A stretch of DNA of 64,000 bases from NCBI RefSeq assembly GCF_900100765.1, contig NZ_FNFO01000005.1, positions 186,001 through 250,000 of the forward strand. The letters are read 5' to 3'. Below the pieces are notes generated by a model. The model did not search any database and was not told the origin of the DNA. It worked only from the letters and a program-made list of their open reading frames with translations. Source of the stretch: Catalinimonas alkaloidigena (GTDB lineage: Bacteria; Bacteroidota; Bacteroidia; Cytophagales; Flexibacteraceae). The position numbers were made by a program, and so were the translations under genes. Below, piece after piece: positions 25,335-40,656 of the stretch (positions are counted from its first letter, which is position 1; the number at the start of each line of letters is the position of its first letter).

Positions 25335-26222
25335 ATGACACAGCAACAGAACCCTGCGGACACCGGCGCAACGCCCGGAGCCGCTAAGGAGCATAAAGTA
25401 TGGTTCATCACCGGTACCTCGCGCGGGTTTGGCCGGGTCTGGACCGAAGCGGTGCTCAAGCGTGGCGACAAGGTAGCGGCGACCGCCCGTAAGCTGGAGA
25501 GCATCGCCGACTTCAATGAAAAGTACGGCGATCAGGTGCTGACGCTTCCCCTGGACGTCACCCAGCCGGAACAAGTGAACGCAGCCGTGGAACAAGCCTA
25601 CGCTCACTTTGGCAGGCTGGACATCGTGTTGAACAATGCTGGTTACTCGTTGGTGAGCACCATCGAAGAAGCCAGCGCCGACGACGTACGCGCCCTCTAC
25701 GAAACCAATATTTTCGGGCCGCTGGCGGTGATCAAAGCCGCGCTGCCACTTCTGCGCAAGCAGGGCTACGGGCACATTCTGGGCACGTCGAGCAACCTGG
25801 GTCACATCACGTTCCCGGTCATCGGTTACTACTGTTCTTCCAAGTGGGCGTTTGAGGCGATCCACGAAAGCCTCGCGGCCGAAGTCGCCCAATTCGGCAT
25901 TAAGGTGACGATCATTGAACCCGGTGCCTATGCCACGGAGTTTGGAAGTCAGCAGTCGCTGAAATTTGCGGAAGGGCAGGAACTTTATGCCGACTTTAAA
26001 GCGAATTTCTTCAAGCGACTGGGCACAATGGAGCGAGGCGACCCGGAGGCGACGCCGGAAGCGTTGTTCGCGGTGGTCGATGCGGAAAATCCGCCCCTTC
26101 GGTTCCACCTGGGGAGTCACAATCTGCCGGGCGTCCGGGAGGCGTATTCCGAGCGCCTGCACGAATGGGAAGCCTGGGATGCGGTCTCCCGTGCCGCGCA
26201 GGGCGAGCCCGTTCAACATTAA
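25335..26222 (+). CDS. Short-chain dehydrogenase/reductase
   Basis: 295 residues from MTQQQNPADTG; the frame opens 20 codons upstream within the operator region. Rossmann fold: TGTSRGFGR (TGxxxGxG cofactor loop), LDVT, NNAGYS, catalytic Ser near TSSNLGHI and YxxxK as YCSSK, then PGAYATEFG. The residue pattern after the second strand (TARKLESI, with an Arg) suggests NADP. Substrate unknown. Followed 62 bases later by an AraC-type gene, a frequent pairing in which the regulator controls the enzyme. Confidence 0.9.
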   Translation: MTQQQNPADTGATPGAAKEHKVWFITGTSRGFGRVWTEAVLKRGDKVAATARKLESIADFNEKYGDQVLTLPLDVTQPEQVNAAVEQAYAHFGRLDIVLNNAGYSLVSTIEEASADDVRALYETNIFGPLAVIKAALPLLRKQGYGHILGTSSNLGHITFPVIGYYCSSKWAFEAIHESLAAEVAQFGIKVTIIEPGAYATEFGSQQSLKFAEGQELYADFKANFFKRLGTMERGDPEATPEALFAVVDAENPPLRFHLGSHNLPGVREAYSERLHEWEAWDAVSRAAQGEPVQH

Positions 26223-26284
26223 CCGTTTCCAGCGCCAACCGATACGCATTGCGGGTGTCGGTTAGCGCGTTTTACCGTTGCACC

Positions 26285-27208
26285 ATGAAGAAAGAAGAAA
26301 GACGCCCCCACACCTTTGGCTCCATCGCCGATGCACACCGTGTGTTCGGGTTGCCGGAGCCGCAGCACCCCCTCATCAGCCTGATCAACGGCGCGGGGCA
26401 CGACAATCTCCACCCACCGTCCGGCGCGCATGTCCTGAACTTCTACAAGATCTCGTACAAGCCTGAGCAAAGCACCCGGCTGCGGTACGGGCAGGGCTAC
26501 TATGATTTTACGGAAGGGGGCTTACTTTTTGCCTCGCCCCATCAGCTCATCGGTGGGGACGACAACCCGGAGGAGACGGCTACCTGCTCGTTGTACACGT
26601 TGCTGATCCATCCGGATTTTTTCCTCGGCCACGCCATCGCTCAGGACATTAAACAGTACGGTTTCTTTTCGTATGCCACCCACGAGGCATTGCACCTCTC
26701 GCAGGAAGAAAAAGAGACGATCCTTGCCCTTTTCAGGATGGTCGAAACCGAGCTACGCGGCCGCATCGACGATTTCAGCCAGGGGGTCATCCTCTCGCAG
26801 ATCGCCCTGTTGCTGAACTTCGCAAACCGGTTCTACCACCGCCAGTTCATCACCCGCAAGGCGGTCAACCACGACATTCTGCGCACGCTCGAAACGTACC
26901 TGGACGACTACCTGGACCATGAAAAACCCCTGACGCAGGGAATTCCTACCGTGCAGTCGCTGGCCGACCACGTGAGCCTTTCTCCGAGTTACCTCAGCGA
27001 CATGCTGCGCTCCCTCACCGGACGCAATGCCCAGCAGCTCATCCACGACAAACTGATCGAGAAAGCCAAAGAACTCTTGTCCACGACGAATCTGTCGGTT
27101 AGCGAAATCGCCTATCTGCTGGGCTTCGAGTATTCCCAGTCGTTCAATCGCCTGTTCAAAACCAAGACCGACCTGTCGCCCCTGGAATTCAGAAGGTCGT
27201 TCAATTGA
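26285..27208 (+). CDS. AraC-family transcription regulator
   Basis: 307 residues from MKKEERRPHTFG. N-terminal cupin-like sensing domain (VLNFYKISYKPE, YYDFTEGGLLFASPHQLI) and C-terminal double helix-turn-helix (about 215-307): VQSLADHVSLSPSYLSDMLRSLTGRNAQQLIHDKLIEKAKELLSTTNLSVSEIAYLLGFEYSQSFNRLFKTKTDLSPLEFR. The likely targets are the dehydrogenase gene just upstream and itself, through the direct repeats at 25256-25285. Ligand unknown. Confidence 0.93.
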   Translation: MKKEERRPHTFGSIADAHRVFGLPEPQHPLISLINGAGHDNLHPPSGAHVLNFYKISYKPEQSTRLRYGQGYYDFTEGGLLFASPHQLIGGDDNPEETATCSLYTLLIHPDFFLGHAIAQDIKQYGFFSYATHEALHLSQEEKETILALFRMVETELRGRIDDFSQGVILSQIALLLNFANRFYHRQFITRKAVNHDILRTLETYLDDYLDHEKPLTQGIPTVQSLADHVSLSPSYLSDMLRSLTGRNAQQLIHDKLIEKAKELLSTTNLSVSEIAYLLGFEYSQSFNRLFKTKTDLSPLEFRRSFN

Positions 27209-27220
27209 GTGTGTAGTATG

Positions 27221-28405
27221 CTACAACTTGATAAAAATCCGTTTCTGGTAAAGCCAGTAACAGATGTACCACAGGACCATCAGCGTCGCCAGGGAGGTGA
27301 CGATCCATTGCAGCGGCTCCGGGAAGCCGAGGAAGCCGGTCAGGCCGTTCGTGAAGATGCCCACCGTTTGGTTGAGCCACTGGTGCCCGAGGGTTTCGAA
27401 GAGGAGGTAGATGAAGATGGGGTTCATCCCCACAATGATGAAGAAGCGAATCCAGTTCGTTTCCGAGGCGCCCTCCCCCTTCCGTACGTCGATCAACGCG
27501 TAACAGAACGCCATGAGGGCGAAGACCCAGCCGCCCGACGCCAGGACAAACCCGGCGGTGCAGATCCGTTTGATGATCGGCGAAACGCCGGTCCAGTCCA
27601 GCGCGTAGCCCAGCACCAGCCCGACCGCCGCGGCGATCAACAGGAGTTTGATTTTTTCATTTGCAGCGCGGTCGGAGGCCAGCCATTTCCCGGCCACCAC
27701 GCCCCAGATCGTGTGCGCCGCCGTGGGCAGGAAGTTGATGGCGATCCAGTGGCCGTCGTTGATCTTGCCCATCAGCACCAAATCCATCCACGTGCCGAAG
27801 CTGTGGTCGGGCACGAACGGCTGGTTGAAGCCTTCGAGCGGAAAGAAGCGGTAGAGCACATCGGTCAGTAGAATCAGCACAAACGAGACGATCAGTTGCA
27901 TCCGCACCGACTGGCGAATCAGCGCAAAGGCGACGATCAGCGTGACCGACAGTTGCGAGAGCACGTTCCAGAGTTCCCACACCAGTTCGCCCGCGTAGAC
28001 GCAGTGCAGTCCCACGCCGCACGCCAGCAGTTTTAAGCTACGCACGAGCGTATGCCGCCAGAGGTCCCCGAAGCTTTCGCCGCGGGCCAGTCGCTTTTGC
28101 GTGGAAAAGTAGAGCGACGTGCCCGCGATCAGCATGAACGACGGCTGTACCAGATCCCAGAAGTGAAGTCCCTCCCACGGCACGTGGAAAAACTGTTCGA
28201 CCAGCCCGGCCCAGAAGCCCGTTTCACCGGTGACATCGTACAGCCGTTCGTAGAGGAGCGTGCTTTCGGCGGCCAGCAGAAACATGATCACCCCGCGCAT
28301 AAAATCGATCGACACCACACGCCCCGAGGCGGTGCTGGGCTTGTCGCGGTAGACGGGTGGTTTTTCGGACGCGAGGGTGGTAGAAGCGGGTGTGGAGACA
28401 GACAT
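27221..28405 (-). CDS. DUF5009/HGSNAT-like membrane N-acetyltransferase
   Basis: 394 residues, about ten hydrophobic helices. It begins with the family signature VVSIDFMRGVIMFLL and an HxxxWEGLHFWDLVQPSFMLIAGTS block, continuing with GKINDGHWIAINFLPTAAHTIWGVVAGKWL. Relatives include bacterial NagX-like proteins and human HGSNAT, which passes acetyl from cytosolic acetyl-CoA to terminal glucosamine on the other side of the membrane. The equivalent of the acetylated His is not certain here. It is divergent from susC and shares with it a control region carrying two LacI-type operators, which ties it to the amino-sugar locus. Alternative: an acyltransferase of other specificity. Confidence 0.75.
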   Translation of the reverse strand: MSVSTPASTTLASEKPPVYRDKPSTASGRVVSIDFMRGVIMFLLAAESTLLYERLYDVTGETGFWAGLVEQFFHVPWEGLHFWDLVQPSFMLIAGTSLYFSTQKRLARGESFGDLWRHTLVRSLKLLACGVGLHCVYAGELVWELWNVLSQLSVTLIVAFALIRQSVRMQLIVSFVLILLTDVLYRFFPLEGFNQPFVPDHSFGTWMDLVLMGKINDGHWIAINFLPTAAHTIWGVVAGKWLASDRAANEKIKLLLIAAAVGLVLGYALDWTGVSPIIKRICTAGFVLASGGWVFALMAFCYALIDVRKGEGASETNWIRFFIIVGMNPIFIYLLFETLGHQWLNQTVGIFTNGLTGFLGFPEPLQWIVTSLATLMVLWYICYWLYQKRIFIKL

Positions 28406-28427
28406 AGGCAGGCAAGGATCGGGATTC

Positions 28428-28462
28428 CAAATATGGAAAAATCCCCGTGGAAAGCCACCAAA
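28428..28462 (-). promoter_or_regulatory. Possible promoter of the acetyltransferase gene
   Basis: Minus strand CATATTTG (28428-28435), one base off TAnnTTTG, with TTTG (28459-28462) 23 bases upstream. The spacing is slightly long. The LacI-type operators lie upstream of it. Confidence 0.35.
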
Positions 28463-28490
28463 CCGCCGCTTCGGGAACGGTCAACAATTT

Positions 28491-28506
28491 GCACAACCGT
28501 TTGTGC
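28491..28506 (+). promoter_or_regulatory. LacI-type operator O1 (susC/acetyltransferase control region)
   Basis: GCACAACCGTTTGTGC, a near-palindrome centred on CG as in LacI-family operators. An identical 16-base sequence occurs at 37117-37132 beside the lacI-type gene. Two such matches in one window, both in control regions of sugar genes, are not expected by chance. Confidence 0.8.
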
Positions 28507-28511
28507 ATCCG

Positions 28512-28527
28512 GTGCAATCGGTTGTGC
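28512..28527 (-). promoter_or_regulatory. LacI-type operator O2, 21 bases from O1
   Basis: Minus strand GCACAACCGATTGCAC, sharing the left half and the CG centre of O1. The start is exactly 21 bases (two helical turns) from that of O1, suggesting that two dimers bind on the same face. Confidence 0.7.
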
Positions 28528-28560
28528 AGTTTGCGAACCCCCTCCCCTGCTGCCGCCGCG

Positions 28561-28592
28561 TTGACTCGTAGTTTATCGCCCGTCTATATTTG
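28561..28592 (+). promoter_or_regulatory. Predicted susC promoter
   Basis: TTG (28561-28563), 21 bases, TATATTTG (28585-28592), an exact match to the -7 consensus. Predicted transcription start near 28599, leaving a leader of about 120 bases before the ATG at 28721. The operators end 33 bases upstream of the -33 element, so binding there would be upstream of the promoter rather than across it. Confidence 0.6.
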
Positions 28593-28720
28593 ATTCCAAC
28601 CCTTCGAGAGCGCCGAGGCACCACGCTGCCTCCCGATTCGTCAGCCTCCGGCCTGCGAGCGCCGTGCTTTTCCAAGTGTCTGTTTCTTTTTACGCGATTC
28701 CTTAACCACTCCCTGGCTCT

Positions 28721-31700
28721 ATGAAAAACCGCTTACGTTATTCTCTTCTCTTCCTGTGGATGCTGCCGCTGGCCTTCGCCCACGCCCAGACCGTGGTGTC
28801 GGGGCAGGTGACCGACTCGGAAAACAACCAGGGCATTCCCGGGGTGAACGTGCTGATCAAAGGCACCTCGAACGGGACCATCACCGATCTGGACGGCCAC
28901 TACCAACTGACGGCCTCGTCGGAAGACGACGTGCTGGTCTTCAGCTTTATCGGGTACGAGAGCCAGGAAGTCCGCATCGGCAACCAGAGCACGCTCAACG
29001 TGGCGCTCGACCCGTCCCTGACGTCGCTCAACGAGGTGATCATCGTCGGGTACGACGACAAAAAAGAGAGCGAACTGACCAGTTCGGTGACGACCGTTTC
29101 GGCACGGCAACTGAAAGACGTGACGACCAACAACGTCGGCAGCATGTTGCAAGGTAAAGTGGCCGGGTTGCAGGTGGTGAACAGTTCGGGCGTACCGGGG
29201 GCGGCTCCGGAAATTCGACTGCGGGGTGTTTCGTCGATCAATGCGTCGCAAAGCCCGCTGTTTGTGGTGGACGGCATCATCGGCGGGAACTACGACCCGA
29301 ACGACGTGGAGAGCATCACGGTGCTGAAAGACGCCGCGGCCACGGCCATGTACGGCTCGCAGGCCAACGCGGGCGTGATCATCGTAACGACCAAACGGGC
29401 CGCTGCTGGAAAAACCCGCTTCGACGGGAAAGTCACCGTGGGCGTGCGGACGCCTTATTTCGGGACGATGGAGATGATGAACGGCAGCCAGCTCTACAAC
29501 TACCAGAAGGAATTTTACCGCGATTACAACACGGCCGTCACCGACAACTCCTACAAAATCGACCTTCTCAAATTTTACAGCGAACGCCCCCGCACGCTCC
29601 GCGATCAGGATTTCGACTGGCTGCGGACCATCTTCGGGCCCGCTCCGGTGCAGAACTACTACTTCTCGGCCTCCGGCAACACCGAAAAGCACGATTACTA
29701 CGTGGGGATGTCGTACTACCGCGAAAAAGGGACGTTCCTCAACACCGATTACCAGCGCCTGAACCTGCGCGGCAATTCGACTTACCACTTTTCCGACGCC
29801 ATTAGCCTCACCAACAACGTGAACGTGAGCGCCAACCTGGGCAAGAGCTACGACTACATGGACATCTACTATGCCTACCTGAACCTGCCGTGGGACAACC
29901 CTTACGACAGCCTGGGCCACCCGGTGTACGTCGACGGCAACTCGTCGTTCCGCTGGTGGTCGCGCGACAAGGTGAACCCGCTGCACACGATCAACAACTC
30001 GACGCATACCTACAAGGGCGGGGACGTTAACTACGACCTCAACCTGAACGTCGACATCACCCCGTGGCTGACGTTCGCCAGCACCAACCGGGCGGCGATT
30101 GGTTTCAGCAAAGGCCACAACTTCTTCTCGCCGCTGGTGGCGGGGCAATACCACGGCACCGGCTACCTGGCCGAAGACGTCTCGCTCAACTACGGCGGCG
30201 TGTCCAACCAACTCCTGAAATTCAATTTCCAGCTGGGGGATCATAACCTGAACGGGCTGGCGGGCGTCGCCTTCCAGGGCGGGCGGTACGAAACGCTGGG
30301 CCTGGCGGGCCGGGGCCTGCCCCAGGGGCTGCAAACGCCGAACGTGATTTCGAGCAACCAGGTGGTGAGCGGCAATTACCAGAAAGACATTTTGCAGTCG
30401 TTCATCTCGCAGGTCAACTACATGTATCAGGAAAAGTACTTCCTGACCGGCTCGTACCGGATCGACGGTTCGTCGGCCTTCCCGCCCACCAACCGGTCGG
30501 CCGGATTCCCGGCGGTATCGGCCGCGTGGCTGATGAGTAAGGAAGCGTTTCTGCAAAACAGCAACCTGATCGACAACCTGAAGCTGCGCCTCAGCTACGG
30601 CGTAACCGGCACGCAGGACATCGGCGCGTCGCGGTACCTCGGTTTGTTCGCGCTGACCAGTCAGTACAATTCGATGGTGGGCGCCATTCCGCTGCAGTTG
30701 CCCAGCCCCAACCTGACCTGGGAAAGCAAGTACCAGTGGAACGCCGGGATCGACCTGGGCTTGGCGCGACGCGTCAGCCTGACGGCCGACGTCTACCACA
30801 ACGCGACCCGCAACCTGCTGCTGCAAGTCTCGCAACCGCTCTCGGTCGGGTTTGAGCAACGCTGGGACAACGTGGGCGAGGTGATCAACAAGGGCGTGGA
30901 ACTGGGGCTGGCCGTGACGCCGGTGCAGACGCCCGCGTTTGCGTGGAATGCCGACTTCAACATCAACGTCAACAGCAACCGCCTGCAAGGGCTGCCGAGC
31001 GACATCATCCGGACCGGTTCGTGGGGCATTTCGCAGATTTACCGCAACGGCGGCAACCTTTACGAATTCTACATTCCGAAGTGGCTGGGCGTCGATTCCC
31101 AAACGGGCGCGCCGTTGTGGGAGGAAGTGCTGACCGACGAAGCGGGCAACGTGACGGGTCGCCAGCCGACCTCCGATTACGCAAAAGCCACGCCGCAGGA
31201 AGTGGGCTCGGCCCTGCCGAAGTTCCAGGGTGGGTTCAACAACACGTTTAGTTACAAAGGGCTTTCGCTGCGCGTCAATACCTATTTCCTCTCGGGCAAC
31301 AAGGTGTTCAGCAACAACCTGCGCTTCGTGCTGAACGACGGCCACGAGCCCTACTACAACCAGATGGTGCTGCCGGAAGGACGCAGCATCTGGACCCAAC
31401 CCGGCGACCAGGCGACCGAACCCAGCCCGCAGAACGCGGCCAACTCGACCGAAACGTCGTCGCGTTACCTGATGGACGGCAGCTACTTCACGATTCGTAA
31501 CGTGGCGCTGTCGTACGAAATCCCCAAAGCTTTTGTCGAGCGCCTGAAGCTGCAATCGCTGGTGGTGTCGCTCACGGCCGACAACGTCTATACCTTCACG
31601 AACTTTGTCGGACAGGACCCGCAGACGACCATCACGCCGAATGTTTACACCACGCCGGGCGTCTCGGATTTCAAGTATCCGAACAACCAGCAGTTTCTGT

Positions 31701-31723
31701 TCAATCTTCTCTTCAGCTTCTAA
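28721..31723 (+). CDS. SusC-family TonB-dependent oligosaccharide transporter
   Basis: 1000 residues. Signal peptide ending in AFAHAQ, then the carboxypeptidase-like domain (VVSGQVTDSENNQGIPGVNVLIKGTSNGTITDLDGHY), the TonB-box region NEVIIVGYDD, plug (VGSMLQGKVAGLQVVNSSGVPGAAPEIRLRGVSSINASQSPLFVVDGII, VLKDAAATAMYGSQANAGVIIVTTK) and a barrel to the terminal LFNLLFSF. It forms the import channel together with the SusD protein encoded 12 bases later. Shares its control region with the acetyltransferase gene. The ligand cannot be read from sequence; the neighbouring genes point to an amino-sugar oligosaccharide. Confidence 0.95.
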   Translation: MKNRLRYSLLFLWMLPLAFAHAQTVVSGQVTDSENNQGIPGVNVLIKGTSNGTITDLDGHYQLTASSEDDVLVFSFIGYESQEVRIGNQSTLNVALDPSLTSLNEVIIVGYDDKKESELTSSVTTVSARQLKDVTTNNVGSMLQGKVAGLQVVNSSGVPGAAPEIRLRGVSSINASQSPLFVVDGIIGGNYDPNDVESITVLKDAAATAMYGSQANAGVIIVTTKRAAAGKTRFDGKVTVGVRTPYFGTMEMMNGSQLYNYQKEFYRDYNTAVTDNSYKIDLLKFYSERPRTLRDQDFDWLRTIFGPAPVQNYYFSASGNTEKHDYYVGMSYYREKGTFLNTDYQRLNLRGNSTYHFSDAISLTNNVNVSANLGKSYDYMDIYYAYLNLPWDNPYDSLGHPVYVDGNSSFRWWSRDKVNPLHTINNSTHTYKGGDVNYDLNLNVDITPWLTFASTNRAAIGFSKGHNFFSPLVAGQYHGTGYLAEDVSLNYGGVSNQLLKFNFQLGDHNLNGLAGVAFQGGRYETLGLAGRGLPQGLQTPNVISSNQVVSGNYQKDILQSFISQVNYMYQEKYFLTGSYRIDGSSAFPPTNRSAGFPAVSAAWLMSKEAFLQNSNLIDNLKLRLSYGVTGTQDIGASRYLGLFALTSQYNSMVGAIPLQLPSPNLTWESKYQWNAGIDLGLARRVSLTADVYHNATRNLLLQVSQPLSVGFEQRWDNVGEVINKGVELGLAVTPVQTPAFAWNADFNINVNSNRLQGLPSDIIRTGSWGISQIYRNGGNLYEFYIPKWLGVDSQTGAPLWEEVLTDEAGNVTGRQPTSDYAKATPQEVGSALPKFQGGFNNTFSYKGLSLRVNTYFLSGNKVFSNNLRFVLNDGHEPYYNQMVLPEGRSIWTQPGDQATEPSPQNAANSTETSSRYLMDGSYFTIRNVALSYEIPKAFVERLKLQSLVVSLTADNVYTFTNFVGQDPQTTITPNVYTTPGVSDFKYPNNQQFLFNLLFSF

Positions 31724-31735
31724 CCGGACCCGACC

Positions 31736-33256
31736 ATGCGCTATCCTAAATATTCTCTTGTTTTTCTCCTCAGTGGCCTGTGTACGCTCGGCAGTTGCGA
31801 CCTGAACGTGGAACCGTCGGATGCCATCACGACCGCCTCGCTGCCCAATACGTCGGACGGGCTGCAAAATGCCCTGAACGGTGCCTACGCGCTGTTCAAA
31901 GACCACATCGCCTTCAACGGCACCCAGGACGATAACCTGATGTACCTGCGGCAGTACTACCAGTTGTCGGACTTTGCGAGCGACGACATTGTTTGCGGAC
32001 AGGTCACGACCGATCCGCTCTACTACAGCTTCACGCTGAACCACACCGCTACGCAAACCAACACGCGCTACTTCTGGTACGTGTCCTACAAGATCATCAA
32101 CGGCGTCAACACCGTGCTCGACGCCGCCGAGCGCGTGGAAAACCCCGACGCGGCCACGCAACAATTGGTCGGTGAGTGCTACTTTCTGCGCGCCCTGGCC
32201 CACTTCAACCTCGTGCGGATTTACGGTCGGCCTTACAGCCACGACCCGAACGCACCGGGCGTCATCATCCGCCAGTCGCTGGCCGACGAAGCCCAGGAAG
32301 CCCGTGCCACGGTTGGCGAAGTGTACGACGCCATCATCGCCGACGCTGAAAAAGGGGCCGAACTGATGAATCAGCCGAGGGGCGTGCAATACGGCTCGAA
32401 AGAGGCCGCCTGGGCGCTGCTGTCGCGGGTCAATCTGTACAAAGAAGATAACCAAAAGGCCCTCGAGTACGCCGACAAGGTCATCAACTCCGGGCGGTTC
32501 AACCTGACCACGGCCGCCACCTATCCGTCTCTCTTCGCCAACGCCGTTTCGGGCAGCGAAACCATCTTCTGCGTGGCCTTTACGCAAATCGACAACTACG
32601 GCAAGTTCGGTTCCATCGCCTCCATGATCTTCTCGGACGGCAACTCCGGCTGGGGCGAAGAGTTTGCGTCGGCTTCGTTGCGGGAGGTGATGAGCGCGCA
32701 CCCCGAAGACGTCCGCTGGTCGTACATCGTGCCGGACACCAACGACGCCGGGGACGTGCAGAAACTCAACGGCATTGAGAAGTACTACATCTCCAAGTTC
32801 TCGTTTCAGGACGGCTTGCCCAACCTGAGTTCGCCGATTCTGTTTCGCCTGGCCGAAATGTACCTGAACCGTGCCGAAGCCAAAGCCAAACTGGGCGACA
32901 CCAACGGCGCACTCGACGACGTCGACCAGATCCGCCAGAACCGGGGGCTGGACGGCGCACTCTACGCCCAGCAACTCCCGGCGGGCATGACCGCCCTCGA
33001 CGTGGTGTTGCAGGAACGGCGGATGGAACTGGCGTTTGAAGGGCACCGCAACTTCGACGTATACCGCAACAAGCGCGACCTCAACCGGGCTTACTGGGGC
33101 TACCACCTGACGGGGCTACAGGAATCGGACATTGACCTGTCGACCGAGCCGGGCAACTACCCGAATCTGACGACCAGTTGGGAGAGTCCGCGCATCATCT
33201 ACTACATCCCCGTCGACGAGGTGTTGTCCAACCCCGAATGCCAGCAGAATCCGTAA
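31736..33256 (+). CDS. SusD-family surface glycan-binding lipoprotein
   Basis: 506 residues. Lipobox-type start (MRYPKYSLVFLLSGLCTLGSCDLNVEP). TPR-rich N-half (QLVGECYFLRALAHFNLVRIYGRPY, EAAWALLSRVNLYKEDNQKALEYADKVI) and the typical end of RagB/SusD proteins (LFRLAEMYLNRAEAKAKLGDTNGALDDVDQIRQNRGL, LQERRMELAFEGHRNFDVYR, YYIPVDEVLSNPECQQNP). It binds the glycan and closes the SusC channel as a lid. Same operon as susC. Confidence 0.95.
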   Translation: MRYPKYSLVFLLSGLCTLGSCDLNVEPSDAITTASLPNTSDGLQNALNGAYALFKDHIAFNGTQDDNLMYLRQYYQLSDFASDDIVCGQVTTDPLYYSFTLNHTATQTNTRYFWYVSYKIINGVNTVLDAAERVENPDAATQQLVGECYFLRALAHFNLVRIYGRPYSHDPNAPGVIIRQSLADEAQEARATVGEVYDAIIADAEKGAELMNQPRGVQYGSKEAAWALLSRVNLYKEDNQKALEYADKVINSGRFNLTTAATYPSLFANAVSGSETIFCVAFTQIDNYGKFGSIASMIFSDGNSGWGEEFASASLREVMSAHPEDVRWSYIVPDTNDAGDVQKLNGIEKYYISKFSFQDGLPNLSSPILFRLAEMYLNRAEAKAKLGDTNGALDDVDQIRQNRGLDGALYAQQLPAGMTALDVVLQERRMELAFEGHRNFDVYRNKRDLNRAYWGYHLTGLQESDIDLSTEPGNYPNLTTSWESPRIIYYIPVDEVLSNPECQQNP

Positions 33257-33282
33257 GTCCCTCACCTTTTTCCTACAACAAC

Positions 33283-34143
33283 ATGAAACGCATCTTACCT
33301 TATATTCTCTTGCTGGTTCCTGCGGCCGTTTTGGTGCAGGGCTGCTCCCAAGACGAAGCCGCCCCCGATCCGGACATTTTCTACCAGGTAGCGACCAACG
33401 GCATGGAGGTCACGTTCACGAACGAAACCACCGGCGCCACGGCCTACGAATGGGATTTCGGCGATGGCGAGACGTCGACCGAGGCCAGCCCCACCCACAC
33501 CTATCCGGGCAAAGGCAAGTACGTGGTCACGCTGTACGCCACCGCTTCCGACGGCCACCGGGTGGAAGGCTCCACGATCCTGCGGCTGTCGAAAAACTCG
33601 CCGGTCAAGCTGACCGACAACTCGCTCGACGACTGGAACGACGTCGCGACCGTTACGCTCGAAGGCTCGGCCGAAACCGGTGTGTTCAAACGCGCCAAGG
33701 TCGACTACGACAGCGAGAAGATTTACTTCTACCTTGAAATGACCTCGAAGGCCGAAAACGGCGATATTTTCGACTTCTACCTCGACACCGACAACAACGC
33801 CAGCACCGGGCTACTCACCTGGTACTTCCCCGAAGGAGCTTACGACGTGTTGCTGGAAGGTGCCGTACTCGGGGGCTGGTTCGACATGTTTTACCACGTG
33901 GGCGAACAAACTGCCTTCTCGTTCGAAGCGCAGTCGGTTCCCGATTTTTATCAGCTCGGCACGGTCCAACAGGAAGGCAACCTGTTGCGGATGGAAATGG
34001 CCCTGGTTCGCTCCAAAATCAAAGGGCTAGCCGGCAACGCCCTGCGGTTCGGCATCGTGGCCACCAGCAACGACTGGTCGACCGAACTCGGGGTGTTGCC
34101 CACCAAGGCCACCAACGCGGTCATGCTCGACATGAGCGAGTAG
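33283..34143 (+). CDS. PKD-domain surface lipoprotein (SusE/F position)
   Basis: 286 residues from MKRILPYILLLVPAAVLVQGC, a lipoprotein signal; the frame opens earlier, inside susD. One PKD domain near residues 30-105 (YEWDFGDGETSTEASPTHTYPGKGKYVVTLYATASDG), then a beta-rich domain of about 170 residues (WNDVATVTLEGS, IYFYLEMTSKAENGDIFDFYLDTDNNASTG) resembling CBM9-like domains. Third gene of the susC operon, where SusE/SusF-type accessory glycan-binding proteins usually lie. It probably displays a binding module on the surface. Confidence 0.78.
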   Translation: MKRILPYILLLVPAAVLVQGCSQDEAAPDPDIFYQVATNGMEVTFTNETTGATAYEWDFGDGETSTEASPTHTYPGKGKYVVTLYATASDGHRVEGSTILRLSKNSPVKLTDNSLDDWNDVATVTLEGSAETGVFKRAKVDYDSEKIYFYLEMTSKAENGDIFDFYLDTDNNASTGLLTWYFPEGAYDVLLEGAVLGGWFDMFYHVGEQTAFSFEAQSVPDFYQLGTVQQEGNLLRMEMALVRSKIKGLAGNALRFGIVATSNDWSTELGVLPTKATNAVMLDMSE

Positions 34144-34198
34144 ATGAGTAGGCTGAAACCCTTCTCTAGCTTCAGCTTGTAGCTTCCCTGTGTTGATA

Positions 34199-34221
34199 GG
34201 ATTCAGGCATAGCCTGAATCC
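34199..34221. repeat. Perfect hairpin after the PKD lipoprotein gene
   Basis: GGATTCAGGC (34199-34208), loop ATA, GCCTGAATCC (34212-34221): a perfect 10-base stem with no T tract. It could be a REP-like unit or a 3'-end hairpin of the susCD transcript. A second weaker hairpin (34327-34377, GGAAGCCGG/CCGGCTTTCC) follows and runs into a T/C-rich tract, and may be the actual terminator. Confidence 0.45.
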
Positions 34222-34398
34222 AGTGGAGTGGGGTTTGAATTAAGCATCAGCCAACTCAATACCCTAATCACTCAGTCACCGATTCTCTAAATCACTAATC
34301 CTGTAGTAGTTGTTTGAGTGATAGAAGGAAGCCGGGAGGACATTGGCTACCCCCCGCGGGGATCTTTCCGGCTTTCCTTTTCTTCCCCCCTCTACCCC

Positions 34399-35919
34399 AT
34401 GCATAAACTTGTTCTGAGTGTGGCGCTATTCGGCATGGTCGCCTGCGCCAAAAATCCCGCTACCGACCCGACTCCGCAGCTAATCACCACGACCTATACG
34501 GAGAGCGACGAAGACTTTCCTAACCCGGAACGGGGTTTCTACCGCTACTCCGAAACCCACGTCGATGCCTACACCCCGCTCGATGCAACGGAACTGGCGT
34601 CGTACCGCCAGCCGCAAACGGTGAGCGGCGCGCGTTACAGCGTGCCCAGTACGCTGGTGTTTCGGTATTACGTACTCGACGGCTACACGGACCAACCGCT
34701 GCCAGCCGAGTTTCTGAGCCGGATGGAGACCGACTTTGCGGCCGTGCGGCAGGCGGGCGTCAAGCTGATTCCCCGGTTTGCCTACACCGTTGCCGCCCGG
34801 GCGGGCAACTGTCCCGAAGGCTTTGCCTGCCCACCCTACGGCGACGCGCCGAAAGAGGTCGTGCTGAACCACATTGCGCAACTCAAACCGGTGCTGCGCG
34901 CAAACAGCGACGTGATTGCCTGCCTGCAAATGGGCTTTATCGGCATCTGGGGCGAGAATTACTACACCGATTATTTCGGCGATCCCTCGACCAACGCAAC
35001 GCAGGGCAAGTTTCTGGACGAGAACTGGCAGGATCGGACCGAAGTGCTCCAGGCCCTTCTCGACGCGCTGCCCGACGACCGGATGGTGCAGGTACGGACG
35101 CCACAGATGAAACAGCGGGCAGTATACGGCGTCAACGCGCCGGTCTCGGCGGCGGCACTCCAGGAATCGGAAGCGTTCGAAGCCACCGACAAAGCGAGGA
35201 TCGGCTTTCACAACGACTGTTTTCAGGCCAGCGCTACCGACTACGGCACGTTTGAAGATTACGGCAACTCGTCGACGCCCCGCAAGGACGCCAACACCGC
35301 CCTGCGCAATTATGCCAAGATGGACAGCCGCTATACGGTGGTGGGCGGGGAAACGTGCAGCGATGCCTACAGTCCGCAGAACGACTGTGCCCCCGCCGGA
35401 CAGGCCGAAGAGGCGTTTCGGGAGATGCACTACAGCTACCTCAATGCGGCTTACAACGTGGACGTCAATAACGATTGGGTCGACGGCGGTTGCATGGCCA
35501 GCATCCAGCGCAAGCTCGGCTACCGGCTGGTGCTGCGGGAAGCGACCCTGCCCGACCGCGTGGCGAAAGGCGACACGCTGGCCGTTTCGCTTGCGCTGGA
35601 AAACCTCGGGTACGCCTCGCCCTACAACCCGCGGCCGGTGCAGCTGGTCTTGCGTCAGGACGCCACGCAACAGCAATTTTCGTTTCCGTTCGCGACCGAC
35701 ATCCGTCGCTGGTTTACCGGGTCCGTTTCGCTCGATGCCTCGTTTATCGTCCCCGATACCCTCCCGGCCGGCGACTACGAAATGTTCTTACAGTTGCCCG
35801 ACGCCGCCACCGATCTGGCTACCCGCCCGGAATACAGCATTCGCCTGGCCAACGAAAACGTCTGGGAAGCGGCTACCGGCTACAACGCCCTCCAGCACAC
35901 GCTCACCGTAACGGAATGA
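34399..35919 (+). CDS. DUF4874/DUF4832 lipoprotein, candidate glycosidase
   Basis: 506 residues from MHKLVLSVALFGMVACAK (lipobox). The N-terminal part (about 25-300) looks like the TIM-barrel DUF4874: FPNPERGFYRYSETH, FRYYVLDGYTDQPLPAEFL, GVKLIPRFAYTV, IACLQMGFIGIWGENYYTDYFGDPS, VQVRTPQMK, and IGFHNDCFQASATDYGTF. The rest matches DUF4832 (GGETCSDAYSPQNDC, MHYSYLNAAYNVDVNNDWVDGG, then a beta-domain). The conserved Glu of GIWGE and the acidic residues at strand ends look catalytic, but I know of no proven activity, so hydrolase is an inference. It lies between the SusCD operon and the LacI gene, hence probably part of the locus. Confidence 0.72.
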   Translation: MHKLVLSVALFGMVACAKNPATDPTPQLITTTYTESDEDFPNPERGFYRYSETHVDAYTPLDATELASYRQPQTVSGARYSVPSTLVFRYYVLDGYTDQPLPAEFLSRMETDFAAVRQAGVKLIPRFAYTVAARAGNCPEGFACPPYGDAPKEVVLNHIAQLKPVLRANSDVIACLQMGFIGIWGENYYTDYFGDPSTNATQGKFLDENWQDRTEVLQALLDALPDDRMVQVRTPQMKQRAVYGVNAPVSAAALQESEAFEATDKARIGFHNDCFQASATDYGTFEDYGNSSTPRKDANTALRNYAKMDSRYTVVGGETCSDAYSPQNDCAPAGQAEEAFREMHYSYLNAAYNVDVNNDWVDGGCMASIQRKLGYRLVLREATLPDRVAKGDTLAVSLALENLGYASPYNPRPVQLVLRQDATQQQFSFPFATDIRRWFTGSVSLDASFIVPDTLPAGDYEMFLQLPDAATDLATRPEYSIRLANENVWEAATGYNALQHTLTVTE

Positions 35920-35921
35920 AG

Positions 35922-35991
35922 ACAGGGCGTAGGACAAAGAGCAGAGTGCTAAGGGCAGAGCGGGAGGCGTTGGGCGCTAAGCGTTAAGAGC
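35922..35991 (+). repeat. Ten degenerate 7-base repeats
   Basis: The gap between the DUF4832 and lacI-type genes splits into ten consecutive heptamers: ACAGGGC, GTAGGAC, AAAGAGC, AGAGTGC, TAAGGGC, AGAGCGG, GAGGCGT, TGGGCGC, TAAGCGT, TAAGAGC. Loose consensus (T/A)A(A/G)GnGC. The period is exact although the units vary. Its position between two convergent genes leaves it free of coding. Confidence 0.5.
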
Positions 35992-36014
35992 TGCCGACTC
36001 AACGCTCGCCGTGC

Positions 36015-37019
36015 TCACCGCACGACGAGTTGGGGTTGCATGACGACTTCCTGACGCGTTTGCTGGTCGGGGTGTTCGATGGCTTCGATCAGGAGGCTGG
36101 CGGCTTTCTCGCCCATTTCGTAGGGAAATTGCTCGATGGAAGCAATGGGCGGGTGTTCGAGGTAAGAACAGAACGACAGATTGGAAAAACTGACGAAGAA
36201 GATATCCTCGTTGATGCGCAGTCCGCGCTGACGACAGACCTCCATCGCATCGAGGGCGATGTAGTCGTGAAAGGCCAGGATGGCCTGAGGCGGCTCGGGC
36301 AGGTCGAGCAGGGCCGCGGTTTTCTTGAGGGTATCTTCCCGGGTCAGGTTTAACCCGACGATGTAATGACGATTGACCGGAATTTCATGCTTCTGCAACG
36401 CCCGGGCGTAGCCGTTCAGCCGCTCGTCGGTGGCCTGGAGGGTCATGGGGCCGTTGAGCAACGCAATGTTGGTCAGCCCTTTCTGCACCAGGAAATCGAC
36501 CGCTTCGAAGGCGCCGCTCGTGATGTCCGAATAGACGCAACTGCTGTGCAAACGCTTGATCACCCGGTCGAAATAGACAATCGGGATGCCGTGTTCGTTG
36601 GCCCGGTCAAAGTGCCGGTACGTGTGCGTACCCGATGCCACCGACACCACAATGCCGTCGACGCCGTGCCGGATGAGCGACCGGATGGCCGTCCGCTCCC
36701 GCTCGAAATCGTTCCGCGACTGCACCACCAACACGCTGTAGCCTTTGTCGATCGTGGCATCTTCGATGCCCGTAATCGCCAGCGAAAAGAACTGTTCCGT
36801 CAGGTACGGCAACACCACCCCAATGTTGAACGTCCGGCGCTTTTTGAGCGAAATGGCCGTGGAATTGGGAATGTAGTTCAGCCGTTCGGCCAGTTCCTGC
36901 ACCTTTTCGCGCGTGCGCAGCCCGATCCGCGGGTGGTTTTGCAACGCCCGGGAAACGGTGGTAATCGAGATGCCCAACTGGCGGGCAATCTCTTTCATGG
37001 TCGTAGGAGAAGAGGGCAT
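36015..37019 (-). CDS. LacI-family repressor/activator of the amino-sugar locus
   Basis: 334 residues. N-terminal helix-turn-helix TMKEIARQLGISITTVSRALQNHPRIGLRTREKVQELAERLNYIPN and the hinge region ISLKKRRTFNIGVVLP, followed by a periplasmic-binding-protein-like sugar-sensing domain. The Met of MKEIA (36998) is an alternative start. It is divergent from the kinase operon; the shared control region carries two LacI-type operators, one identical to the operator before susC. It most likely responds to a sugar or sugar phosphate derived from the imported glycan and controls both halves of the locus and itself. Confidence 0.93.
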   Translation of the reverse strand: MPSSPTTMKEIARQLGISITTVSRALQNHPRIGLRTREKVQELAERLNYIPNSTAISLKKRRTFNIGVVLPYLTEQFFSLAITGIEDATIDKGYSVLVVQSRNDFERERTAIRSLIRHGVDGIVVSVASGTHTYRHFDRANEHGIPIVYFDRVIKRLHSSCVYSDITSGAFEAVDFLVQKGLTNIALLNGPMTLQATDERLNGYARALQKHEIPVNRHYIVGLNLTREDTLKKTAALLDLPEPPQAILAFHDYIALDAMEVCRQRGLRINEDIFFVSFSNLSFCSYLEHPPIASIEQFPYEMGEKAASLLIEAIEHPDQQTRQEVVMQPQLVVR

Positions 37020-37034
37020 GAGGAGCGCTTCGGA

Positions 37035-37072
37035 TTAACCTGCAATTTACGTCGCGTTAACCTGTAATTTAC
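37035..37072 (-). promoter_or_regulatory. 16-base direct repeat in the lacI-type gene leader
   Basis: TTAACCTGCAATTTAC (37035-37050) and TTAACCTGTAATTTAC (37057-37072), 15 of 16 bases identical and 22 bases apart. They lie between the operators and the lacI-type start codon, so a second control element or a local duplication of its promoter is possible. Confidence 0.5.
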
Positions 37073-37116
37073 AAGATATGTTGAAATGGCCCTGCGATCG
37101 GCGCTTTGCACAAGTT

Positions 37117-37153
37117 GCACAACCGTTTGTGCGTCGTGCGCAACCGATTAAGC
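37117..37153 (+). promoter_or_regulatory. Pair of LacI-type operators between lacI-type gene and kinase operon
   Basis: O3 GCACAACCGTTTGTGC (37117-37132) is identical to O1 at 28491. O4 GCGCAACCGATTAAGC (37138-37153) keeps the CAACCG core of O2. The starts are 21 bases apart, the same spacing as in O1/O2. TTGCACAA also occurs just upstream (37106-37113). The pair lies upstream of the promoter for the kinase gene. Confidence 0.75.
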
Positions 37154-37186
37154 AGCGTTTCCCGTTGCCGCCCCCCCGGCGACGAA

Positions 37187-37217
37187 TTGATTAAACCTAC
37201 GACAGATCGTTACTTTG
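37187..37217 (+). promoter_or_regulatory. Predicted promoter of the kinase operon
   Basis: TTG (37187-37189), 20 bases, TTACTTTG (37210-37217), the same arrangement as in the trp promoter. Predicted transcription start near 37224, leader about 78 bases. Operators O3/O4 end 33 bases upstream of the TTG, the same distance as O1/O2 before the susC promoter. Confidence 0.5.
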
Positions 37218-37301
37218 ACCTAGAATTATGACGATGATCCTGACTCTGCTCTTTTCACAATTACGCTTGCTGCGTTCCGTACGCCCTTCCTTTGCCGTCT
37301 T

Positions 37302-38423
37302 ATGCGCATGACCCCCTCTCCGCTTACCGTCTCGACGCCCGGACGGATCTGCCTCTTTGGCGAACACCAGGATTACCTGGGCCTGCCGGTGATTGCGGCG
37401 GCCATTTCGCGGCGCATCCGGATGACGGGCACACTGCGCCCCGACCGCCGGGTGGTGATCCAACTGCCCGACATCAACGCCCGCGAAACGTTCGAACTGG
37501 CCCCCACGCTGGCGTATGAAAAACCCCGCGACTATTTCCGCAGTGTGGTCAACATCCTGCAACGCGAAGGCGTCGCCATCGACCACGGCGTAGAAGTGAC
37601 GGTGCGCGGCGACATTCCGATCAATTCGGGGACGTCGAGTTCGTCGGCGCTGCTGGTCACGTGGATTCATTTTCTGCTCCGTTGTTTCGACGGCACGCTG
37701 GCGCAATCGCCGGAGGCCATCGGCGACATGACCTACCGGGCGGAAGTGCTGGAATTCGGGGAACCGGGCGGAATGATGGACCACTACTCGACCGCGCTGG
37801 GCAACGTGATGTATTTCGAGTCGCAACCCACGATCCACATCGAGAAATTCCGGCCGAGTCTGGGCACGTTCGTGTTGGGCGATTCGCTGGAACCGAAAGA
37901 TACGATCGGGATTCTGCGTCGGGTGAAGTACGGCATGCTCGAAGCCCTCCGGAAGATTCAGGCCTACGACCCGACGTTCGACCTGCACCACGCGCCCCAG
38001 GAAAGCGCCGCAGCGTACCGCACGATTCTGACGGCCGACGAGCTGCAACTGCTGCAAAGCAACCTGTCGGACCGCGACATTCTGCGCGACGCCAAACAGT
38101 TGCTGGAAAACGAAACCCTTTCCGACGAACGGCGCGGGCTGCACCTGGGTGCGTTGCTCAATCAGCACCAGGATAACCTGCGCGACGCCAAGCGCATTTC
38201 TACCCCGAAAATAGACGCCATGCTCGACGCCGCGCTTCGGGCCGGGGCGGTGGGCGGCAAAATCAACGGTTCGGGCGGCGGCGGCTGCATGTTTGCCTAC
38301 GCCCCCGACCAGCCCGAAGTGGTGGCCGAAGCCGTAGAGCGGGCGGGCGGAAAGGCCTACATCGTGACCGTCGACGAAGGCACCCGCGTCGAATCTCCTA
38401 CCGAAACCTTTGCCGTGAAATGA
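37302..38423 (+). CDS. GHMP-family sugar kinase (galactokinase-like)
   Basis: 373 residues; Met1 or Met3 may be the start. The three GHMP motifs are present: PGRICLFGEHQDYLG near residues 13-27 (galactokinase type, normally GRxNLIGEHTDY), IPINSGTSSSSALL near 110-123 (ATP loop), and KINGSGGGGCMFAYA near 322-336. The catalytic acidic residue may be in GEPGGMMDHYS. These enzymes phosphorylate C1 of a sugar. The Gln in HQDY in place of Thr, the shorter length and the neighbours (GH109, NagB) suggest a substrate other than galactose, perhaps N-acetylgalactosamine as in GALK2. That is an inference. First gene of a four-gene operon. Confidence 0.82.
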   Translation: MRMTPSPLTVSTPGRICLFGEHQDYLGLPVIAAAISRRIRMTGTLRPDRRVVIQLPDINARETFELAPTLAYEKPRDYFRSVVNILQREGVAIDHGVEVTVRGDIPINSGTSSSSALLVTWIHFLLRCFDGTLAQSPEAIGDMTYRAEVLEFGEPGGMMDHYSTALGNVMYFESQPTIHIEKFRPSLGTFVLGDSLEPKDTIGILRRVKYGMLEALRKIQAYDPTFDLHHAPQESAAAYRTILTADELQLLQSNLSDRDILRDAKQLLENETLSDERRGLHLGALLNQHQDNLRDAKRISTPKIDAMLDAALRAGAVGGKINGSGGGGCMFAYAPDQPEVVAEAVERAGGKAYIVTVDEGTRVESPTETFAVK

Positions 38424-39289
38424 AACCACGAATCTTGATCCTTGCCGGGGGGGTGGCCTCCCGCATGAAAAAAGCCGCCGAAGTGCAGGACATCGACCAG
38501 CATCTGCTGGACCAGGCCGACACCGTCAACAAAGGCATGATCGGGCTCGGTTACGCCGGTCGCCCTTTTATCGACTATCTGCTCTACAACGCCTACAAGG
38601 CGGGCATGGAAGAGGTATTGCTGCTGTTGCATCCGCAGGACGACGTAACCCAGCCGTATTACGAACGCATGATGGCCGAAGGCAATGCCTGGGGCCTGCA
38701 AATCCGCTTCGCACGGCAGCACATCGCGCCCGACCGCGCCAAACCGGCCGGCACTGCCGACGCGGTCTACCAGGCGCTGCAACAGCACCCCGACTGGCAT
38801 CAGGGCCGCCTGATTGTGTGCAACAGTGACAATCTTTATTCGATCGAAGCGATGCGGCAGCTCTGGGAGGGCGCGCACGCCAATGCCCTGATCGGCTACG
38901 ACCGCGACGCCCTCGACTTTCCGGAGGAGCGCATCCGCGCCTTCGCCCTGATCAAAAAAAACAAGGACGGTTTTCTGGAAGAGATCACCGAAAAACCTTC
39001 GGACGATGAGGTGGCCGAGGCCGTGCGCACGTGGGGACGCGTGGAAGTGAGCATGAACATCTTCGTTATGGAAGCCGCCGCGATGCTCCCATATTTCGCG
39101 ACGACGCCCTTCCATCCGGTGCGGAACGAAAAAGAGTTGCCCACGACCGTCAACCGATTTGTAAAAGAGCACCCGCTTTCGTTCTTTGTTGTTCCTCGGG
39201 CCGAAAAGGTGCCGGACCTGACCAGCAAGCAGGACATCCGCCTCGTACAGGATTACTTGTTCCACCATTACCAGGATTTTTCAGCATGA
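38420..39289 (+). CDS. Sugar-1-phosphate nucleotidyltransferase
   Basis: 289 residues. The N-terminal LILAGGVASRMKK is a diverged nucleotide-binding loop of NTP transferases. Further signatures are AGRPFIDYLLYNAYKAG, KPAGTADAVYQAL, IVCNSDNLYSIEAM (metal-binding Asp) and VSMNIFVMEAAAM. It would turn the sugar-1-phosphate made by the preceding kinase into an NDP-sugar. Its ATG overlaps the kinase stop (ATGA), so the two are translationally coupled, which supports one pathway. The nucleotide and sugar are not known; UTP plus GalNAc-1-phosphate or a similar pair would fit the locus. Confidence 0.82.
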   Translation: MKPRILILAGGVASRMKKAAEVQDIDQHLLDQADTVNKGMIGLGYAGRPFIDYLLYNAYKAGMEEVLLLLHPQDDVTQPYYERMMAEGNAWGLQIRFARQHIAPDRAKPAGTADAVYQALQQHPDWHQGRLIVCNSDNLYSIEAMRQLWEGAHANALIGYDRDALDFPEERIRAFALIKKNKDGFLEEITEKPSDDEVAEAVRTWGRVEVSMNIFVMEAAAMLPYFATTPFHPVRNEKELPTTVNRFVKEHPLSFFVVPRAEKVPDLTSKQDIRLVQDYLFHHYQDFSA

Positions 39290-40632
39290 ACTACCCCATT
39301 CAGCGGCGCGACTTTCTCCGTCAGTCTTCCGTTGCGGCCGCTGCCGCGGCCCTCTGGCCCCAGTCGCTCTACGCCCAACCCGACAAAAAAGTCCGTCTAG
39401 GCTTCATCGGCGTCGGTTTGCGTGGGCGCAACCACGTCCACAACGCCCTCGGCTTCGCAGACGTGGAAATCCCGGCCATCTGCGACGTTGATCCGGAAGC
39501 CATCGCCGCTACCCAGAAGCTGATTCGGGAATCGGGCCGGAAAGAAGCCGCGGCCTACGCCAAAGGCGACCACGATTTCGAGCGGATGCTGAAGCGCGAC
39601 GACCTCGATGGGGTGATCATCGCGACGCCGTGGGAGTGGCACGTGCCGATGGCGGTCGCAACAATGAAAGCTGGGAAATACGCCGGGGTGGAAGTATCGG
39701 CCACGGTGACGCTACAGGAATCGTGGGATCTGGTCGATACCTACGAAAAAACCGGGGCGCACTGCATGATTCTGGAGAATGTCTGCTACCGTCGCGACGT
39801 GATGGCCGTGCTCAACATGGTGCGCCAGGGCCTGTTCGGCGAGCTGATTCACCTGCAATGCGGCTACCAGCACGACTTGCGGCCGGTCAAGTTCAACAAC
39901 GGCAAACAGCCCTACGGAGGCGGCGTGGAATTCGGGGAGAAGGCGTTCAGCGAAGCCCGCTGGCGGACGCAACACTCGGTCGACCGGAACGGCGACCTGT
40001 ACCCGACACACGGCCTGGGGCCCGTCGCGCAGATGATCGACATCAATCGGGGCAACCAGTTTTTGTACCTAACCTCGATGGCTACCAAAAGCCGGGGGCT
40101 GCACAAATACATCGTCGACAACGGCGGCCCGAACCATCCCAACGCCAAGGTGCAGTTCAAGCTGGGCGACGTGGTGCAGACCATGATCAAATGCGCCAAC
40201 GGCGAAACCATCCTGATTACCCACGACACCAACTCGCCCCGCCCCTATTCGCTGGGCTTCCGGGTACAGGGCACGCAGGGCCTCTGGCTGGACGACGGCG
40301 ACCAGATTTACATCGAAGGCACGACCCAGACCAACGACGAGTGGGAATCGGACGCGGCTTACATGAAAACGTACGACCACCCCTACTGGCAGGCGTCGGC
40401 GTCGGTGGCCGAAGGAGCCGGGCACGGCGGCATGGACTACTTCGTGATCCGCGATTTTATCAACGCCGTGAAGACCCAAACCGCCCCGCCGATCGACGTC
40501 TACGATGCGGCGGCCTGGTCGGCAATCAGCCCGCTTTCCGAGCAATCGATCGCTCAGGGATCGGCTCCAATCGAAATTCCTGACTTCACTCGTGGGAAAT
40601 GGAAGTCAAACCGTCCTATCTTTGGGCTCTAA
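39286..40632 (+). CDS. GH109-type alpha-N-acetylgalactosaminidase (NAD-dependent), Tat-exported
   Basis: 448 residues. Twin-arginine signal MNYPIQRRDFLRQSS with cleavage after LYAQ, so it is exported folded with its cofactor. Rossmann motif LGFIGVGLRGRNHVHNAL and ICDVDPEAIAAT, followed by the GH109 blocks TPWEWHVPMAVATMKAGK, EVSATVTLQESWDLVDT, LENVCYRRDVMAVLNMV, GLFGELIHLQCGYQHDLR, YPTHGLGPVAQMIDINRGN, and GHGGMDYFVIRDFI. GH109 enzymes remove alpha-linked terminal GalNAc by a redox mechanism with tightly bound NAD. The start overlaps the preceding stop (ATGA). Gfo/Idh-type dehydrogenases are the alternative, but these blocks are typical of GH109. Confidence 0.88.
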   Translation: MNYPIQRRDFLRQSSVAAAAAALWPQSLYAQPDKKVRLGFIGVGLRGRNHVHNALGFADVEIPAICDVDPEAIAATQKLIRESGRKEAAAYAKGDHDFERMLKRDDLDGVIIATPWEWHVPMAVATMKAGKYAGVEVSATVTLQESWDLVDTYEKTGAHCMILENVCYRRDVMAVLNMVRQGLFGELIHLQCGYQHDLRPVKFNNGKQPYGGGVEFGEKAFSEARWRTQHSVDRNGDLYPTHGLGPVAQMIDINRGNQFLYLTSMATKSRGLHKYIVDNGGPNHPNAKVQFKLGDVVQTMIKCANGETILITHDTNSPRPYSLGFRVQGTQGLWLDDGDQIYIEGTTQTNDEWESDAAYMKTYDHPYWQASASVAEGAGHGGMDYFVIRDFINAVKTQTAPPIDVYDAAAWSAISPLSEQSIAQGSAPIEIPDFTRGKWKSNRPIFGL

Positions 40633-40656
40633 TCCAATCCATCCATCTGTATTACC

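Follow-up and report, generated by a model that had tools for sequence, protein, structure and literature searches.

The operators of LacI-family regulators are even palindromes of 16–22 nt with a central CG, and tandem sites lie 21–22 (or 32) bp apart (PMC4052901). Such a tandem arrangement occurs twice in an amino-sugar locus of Catalinimonas alkaloidigena (Bacteroidota, Cytophagales), within a stretch of 64,000 nucleotides on contig NZ_FNFO01000005.1 (positions 186,001 to 250,000; the whole stretch is called the window below, and coordinates refer to it unless a contig or locus is named). One operator pair precedes the gene for a SusC-type receptor and the other a sugar kinase operon; the LacI-family protein encoded between them is the probable regulator of both.

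The closest described systems share parts of this arrangement. RafR (Enterobacteriales) and ScrR (Burkholderiales) likewise have pairs of CG-centred palindromes 21–22 bp apart, taken as obligatory cooperative binding; they belong, however, to other phyla and regulons, and in the available part of the source no constant spacing relative to a Bacteroidota -7 box is described (PMC4052901). In Bacillus, the LacI-family protein CcpA activates several genes from upstream of the core promoter in a helix-face-dependent manner, as in the model proposed here, but it is a global catabolite regulator that works with HPr-Ser-P at a different promoter type, and fixed twin pairs do not figure in the sections available (PMC3463425). 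Within the same phylum, KdgR, UxaR, UxmR and UxuR of Bacteroides are LacI-family regulators of sugar pathways; unlike the locus described here, these are uronate pathways, and in the accessible text the word activator is absent and tandem concerns SusR together with hybrid two-component systems (PMC3878776). Control of Bacteroides glycan loci is described in the same source via hybrid two-component systems, SusR-like regulators and ECF sigma factors (PMC3878776). In gene content, the N-acetylgalactosamine (GalNAc) locus BT4240-50 of Bacteroides thetaiotaomicron resembles the present one in bringing together GH109, a SusD-like protein and a kinase; its GalNAc kinase belongs to the APH family, whereas the kinase found here is a GHMP protein of predicted specificity, and LacI is not mentioned in the part of the source available (PMC11992087). 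There are precedents both for tandem LacI sites (PMC4052901) and for LacI-family activators (PMC3463425); what appears new is that the two come together at a constant distance from a Bacteroidota -7 box. Among the literature matches listed, judged by titles and abstract openings, none dealt with a LacI regulon of the Cytophagales in which the promoter spacing is fixed.

Upstream of susC, operator 1 (GCACAACCGTTTGTGC, a CG-centred near-palindrome) occupies positions 28491–28506 of the forward strand, and operator 2 (GTGCAATCGGTTGTGC, 28512–28527, forward strand) starts 21 bp after the start of operator 1. Upstream of the kinase gene, the identical operator 1 (GCACAACCGTTTGTGC) recurs at 37117–37132 on the same strand, followed at the same distance of 21 bp by its own operator 2 (GCGCAACCGATTAAGC, 37138–37153). 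The original prediction had described the exact repeat, the weaker copy 21 bases away and the end of each pair 33 bases before a TTG (28561 and 37187); pattern search, reading of both regions and counting confirmed all three, and the two 16-mers turned out to be the only exact copies in the 7,107,765-base genome, where the next best match has two mismatches. The proposed genome scan for the motif with a 21-spaced second copy gave an equally narrow result: the pattern CAAYCGNTT-N12-CAAYCGNTT, without mismatches, occurs at these two promoters and nowhere else in 7.1 Mb. Many unrelated copies of the motif, which would have spoken against a common regulator, were not found; genome-wide matches to GCACAACCGTTTGTGC at up to three mismatches (87, against 130 for the reversed pattern) are not in excess; the window holds six such matches (both strands of near-palindromes counted) where 1.06 are expected, a number that none of 100 shuffles reached. 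The two pairs lie, as had been stated, between the acetyltransferase gene (nagX-like) and susC and between lacI and the kinase operon. Both intervals separate divergent genes, so that the promoter facing the other way could be touched as well.

The operator pair follows the LacI protein across genera. We compared 80 named kinase loci, calling a twin pair where two sites with at most four mismatches in total to GCRCAANCGNTTGYGC stood at a spacing of 21 or 22 no more than 400 bases before the kinase match. Such a pair was present at all five loci with a LacI protein of at least 60% identity, at one of 11 with a LacI protein of 40–60% (L063, at 59.9%) and at one of 64 without (L084), an association with a Fisher probability of 8.7e-7, uncorrected for relatedness. 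Relatives of the LacI protein at E 1e-90 or better were found in 14 of the 390 genomes of the order, the C. alkaloidigena genome included, and the LacI proteins that occur with an operator pair share a nearly invariant DNA-recognition segment. A scan of thirteen genomes for full twin pairs (at most three mismatches, spacing 21 and 22) yielded 14, and the reversed-pattern controls gave none. Ten of the 14 precede the kinase gene, one the susC gene of the window, two a susC-type cluster in genome G319 and one a GH109-like gene. In G319 the kinase lies on contig C21 and both susC-type clusters on C20; the first has a SusC/SusD-type pair after the operators, and the second comprises FecR, a SusC-type receptor and two sulfatases, with a short operator-adjacent gene that by eye appears ECF sigma factor-like. 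The pair before the GH109-like gene (identified by eye) belongs to Larkinella arboricola (G390) and adjoins a different LacI gene. A further pair, L060:3844, is 6 kb away from the kinase pair and has lacI on one side and genes for amidohydrolases and a polysaccharide lyase on the other.

These comparisons give good support to a single LacI regulon that covers susC and the kinase operon: the perfect pair is confined to two promoters, follows the lacI orthologue from genus to genus, and the link between kinase and susC recurs in G319. The naming of the adjacent lacI-type gene as the regulator, which the original prediction had drawn from its position, is likewise supported by the distribution of orthologues and operator pairs. 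Its picture of two distant halves joined by one regulon fared less evenly: the joint regulon gained sequence support, and the distant halves gave way to one compact hexosamine locus of ten genes (27221–42588) whose operator pairs are 8.6 kb apart.

Beyond the operator pair itself, its fixed distance to the core promoter is a new observation. In the susC promoter, the -7 box TATATTTG (28585–28592, forward strand) starts 94 bases from the start of operator 1, and a TTG that is a candidate -33 element (28561–28563) stands 33 bases after the pair with a spacer of 21 to the box; in the kinase promoter, the box TTACTTTG (37210–37217, forward strand) starts at 93, and the corresponding TTG (37187–37189), also 33 bases after the pair, has a spacer of 20. 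A search of 13 twin-operator promoters at offsets between 38 and 200 gave 12 occurrences of the strict box TANNTTTG, every one of them 93 or 94 bases from operator 1; the remaining promoter, that of the kinase in the window, has TTACTTTG at 93. Shuffling the sequences 2000 times never placed boxes of more than two promoters in a common 2-base window. Median pairwise identity among the 13 promoters over the 50 bases preceding the box is 0.28. Two more promoters, found later by their operators alone and inspected on both strands, have TAGATTTA at 93 and TAATTTTC at 94, so that all 15 twin promoters assigned to this regulator carry a T[AT]NNTTT box at 93/94, and the upstream sites keep a fixed helical phase to it. 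Both operators of all 15 promoters share an invariant CAA.CG.TT, as in the LacI-family form of operator, and the spacing within the pair is 21 in seven promoters and 22 in eight. In the reverse direction, TANNTTT stands at 93/94 in one of 13 promoters.

The set of 15 leaves out the GH109-like pair of G390, the Siphonobacter pairs, the pairs of Larkinella and Arsenicibacter that adjoin LacI proteins of 45–52% identity, and the single sites of genomes G293 and G176. It includes the G139 pair (four mismatches) and the L060:3844 pair (six mismatches), both beyond the three-mismatch limit of the genome scan. G139 has three sites in a row with spacings of 22 and 21; anchored on the second it gives 93, and the first would give 115.

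On this basis, two dimers of the LacI protein (36015–37019) would sit next to each other on the same face of the DNA, probably bound cooperatively, at the twin CG-centred operators of susC and kinase, and would co-regulate uptake (susCD) and cytoplasmic processing (kinase, nucleotidyltransferase, GH109 and NagB-PIG-L proteins) by activating transcription; we put the probability of this model at roughly two in three. If transcription starts about 11 bases after the beginning of the -7 box, the operator centres would fall near -97 and -76, from where the bound protein could contact RNA polymerase. The effector would presumably be a sugar or sugar phosphate of the pathway. The original prediction had left the sign of regulation open, with activation or cooperative binding set beside simple repression; the distance between operators and core promoter, fixed at 93/94 and never overlapping, now favours activation through contact with RNA polymerase. 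If the model holds, a LacI-type activator of uptake and metabolism would add a simple cytoplasmic sensor to the known controls of Bacteroides-type glycan loci, and the rule of an operator pair with a -7 box at 93/94 would predict activated promoters from raw genomes of the order.

The same sites could also serve an ordinary repressor, with an unchanged regulon and two dimers that block transcription, by bending the DNA or by excluding another activator, until an inducing sugar is present. Most characterised LacI-family proteins are repressors, the best-known relative switches genes off, and RafR and ScrR are repressors as well. For these two, double sites 21–22 bp apart are the only form given in the available part of PMC4052901, and some relatives of the present locus (G378, with roughly 40–50 bp from the lacI start to operator 1) have the pair close enough to lacI to repress it. 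CcpA itself can act as a repressor from upstream, as at the lev operon, where it blocks another activator (PMC3463425). Against repression stands the position of the pair: roughly 55 bases separate its end from the -7 box in all 15 promoters, leaving the -33 position free, and its distance varies by a single base despite largely unrelated spacers, where a blocking site would tolerate more; the repressor is, on balance, the rather unlikely alternative. That the sites belong to another regulator is very improbable: an AraC-type protein is encoded near the susC end (26165–27208), and the motifs of hybrid two-component systems in Bacteroides are direct repeats with an average of 21 bp between them (PMC3878776), but the units here are CG-centred palindromes of the LacI-family form (PMC4052901), and the pair accompanies the lacI orthologue, with its nearly invariant recognition segment, from genus to genus. 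A chance repeat, or a recent functionless duplication of an intergenic segment, would leave the cross-genus conservation and the fixed promoter distance unaccounted for, and the DNA flanking the two copies in the window appears unrelated; this explanation can practically be dismissed.

Several results weigh against the activator model. Operator 2 of the kinase promoter in the window is degraded (AAGC for GYGC). In G293 and G176, which have the closest LacI proteins (71–72% identity), the sites are single, one standing before a susC-type gene and one before a GH109 or kinase gene, and the scanned form of the -7 box is absent at 93. The recognition segment is common to related LacI proteins too, and the genome of C. 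alkaloidigena contains six further LacI-family genes. The promoters are not independent of each other (spacer identity 0.74 between G378 and L120, 0.52 between L063 and L069). Neither the GH109-like pair of G390 nor the Siphonobacter pairs beside LacI proteins of 49–52% identity have a box at 93/94, and none was found at this distance for the Larkinella and Arsenicibacter pairs. When the C. alkaloidigena genome was scanned for an operator and a box 80 or 81 bases apart with at most one mismatch, three places were found (the two window promoters and one more), against five (1 + 4) in the reversed controls; the scan therefore adds no significance and shows only the absence of a further good example. 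The -33 element offers no argument either. A TTG at a spacer of 17–23 occurs in six of the 15 promoters (shuffle mean 1.6), and the element is thus weak and mildly enriched, not absent; a -33 element was not identified in Flavobacterium johnsoniae either, in the part of PMC7366714 available. The idea that a missing -33 element proves activation was dropped, since the phylum has no well-defined -33 element.

The view that the pair chiefly serves lacI auto-regulation was rejected. In the Dyadobacter loci L063 and L069 and in G139, lacI is not divergent from the kinase gene, and the operators stand between the two, positioned to serve the kinase; the scarcity of boxes in the reverse direction (the single case in 13) speaks the same way. 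The two pairs are unlikely to be joined by a DNA loop: at 334 amino acids, the protein is about as long as the CcpA (332–339) and PurR (340) chains among the matches and shorter than LacI (360), whose extra tail is the tetramer helix.

The spacing may extend beyond this regulon, within limits. Tandem pairs of the type CAAACGNTTG, 21–22 bp apart, were found in 25 of the 390 genomes of the order, against one for the reversed pattern. Among 24 other tandem pairs (48 strands; L199 was excluded as it belongs to the regulon under study), TANNTTT occurs six times at 93/94, against a shuffle mean of 0.21 and with none of 3000 shuffles reaching six. Six occurrences also fall at 103–105, a window picked after the data were seen; this group lies one helical turn farther and serves GH109-type genes in the inspected cases L093, L095 and L204. 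Several counts weigh against a general ruler: 18 of the 24 pairs have no TANNTTT at 93/94 on either strand, the strict box TANNTTTG is found at this distance in none of the 24, four of the six cases at 93/94 come from one genus, and of three further pairs none has a box at 93/94 and one has it at 104. It is thus a tentative proposition, somewhat short of even odds, that a class of LacI-type activators in the Cytophagales reads a fixed ruler of operators 21–22 bp apart and a -7 box at 93/94, or at 103–105 in the GH109 group. The failure of the strict box in other pairs and the genome scan that did not rise above its controls lowered our estimate both for this ruler and for activation. At the Siphonobacter loci L076, L077, L088 and L103, a diverged pair (CATTCGTTTG and CAAACGAATG) stands at the same place, with a TANNTTAG box near offset 105 by eye, again a helical turn beyond 93/94.

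The gene products of the locus fit a hexosamine pathway. Divergently from susC, a NagX-like transmembrane amino-sugar acetyltransferase is encoded on the reverse strand (27221–28405; NF046061, E 5.9e-32, 111 bits against a cut-off of 480, no Pfam family). On the forward strand, domain searches identified the SusC-type TonB-dependent receptor (28721–31723), a SusD-type lipoprotein (31736–33256), a PKD-domain lipoprotein (33283–34143; PF18911) and a DUF4874/DUF4832 protein (34399–35919), the start codons of the last two picked by eye. The gene of the LacI-family regulator, the proposed binder of both pairs, whose orthologues occur with the same operators, lies on the reverse strand; its product belongs to the LacI/GalR family by PF00356 (3.5e-14; 52.7 bits, cut-off 27) and by the Peripla_BP domains PF13377 and PF00532, both above cut-off. 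The operon on the forward strand beyond it begins with a GHMP sugar kinase (37302–38423) that appears galactokinase- or GalNAc-kinase-like from its domains and PDB matches; the latter are headed by mevalonate kinases (8.5e-21) and include galactokinases and the N-acetylgalactosamine kinase 2a2c (4.8e-15). It continues with a sugar-1-phosphate nucleotidyltransferase-like protein (38420–39289; PF00483, 5.2e-12), a GH109-type protein of the NAD-dependent N-acetylgalactosaminidase family (39286–40632; PF21252, 1.8e-92; start codon picked by eye) and a fusion of a glucosamine-6-phosphate deaminase-like NagB domain with a PIG-L deacetylase domain (40657–42588; NF002557, 1071 bits; PF01182 and PF02585). 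The presence of GH109 here, and of GH123 near the kinase in Larkinella arboricola, points to a substrate of the GalNAc type; the target glycan is probably hexosamine-containing, with GalNAc a likely component.

The distribution of these genes is uneven. In the ten other genomes of the family to which C. alkaloidigena belongs, no LacI orthologue and no kinase relative above 31% identity were found; both proteins occur at about 60–72% identity in more distant families. Horizontal gain, or loss in the relatives, may account for this pattern. In L063, L069 and G139, an ATG stands 11 bases after the start of the -7 box, upstream of the kinase, and the kinase transcript would be nearly leaderless if the kinase starts at that ATG.

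Further sites of the same general form occur elsewhere in the C. alkaloidigena genome. A third full operator, GCACAACCGATTGCGC (C8:87832-87847, L007:1501-1516), lies about 530 bp before another SusC/SusD pair; it stands alone, without a recognisable second copy and with TATTTTCC 92 bases downstream by eye, and could mark a further target. Another tandem LacI-type pair, of the type CAAACGTTTG with a spacing of 21 bp, is found at C2:231585 (L191:1501), apparently between genes. Within the window, between the lacI start and the operator pair of the kinase promoter, a second direct repeat (TTAACCTGYAATTTAC) occurs at 37035–37050 and 37057–37072, 22 bases apart; these are its only exact matches genome-wide, and it may mark the lacI promoter or a site of another regulator.

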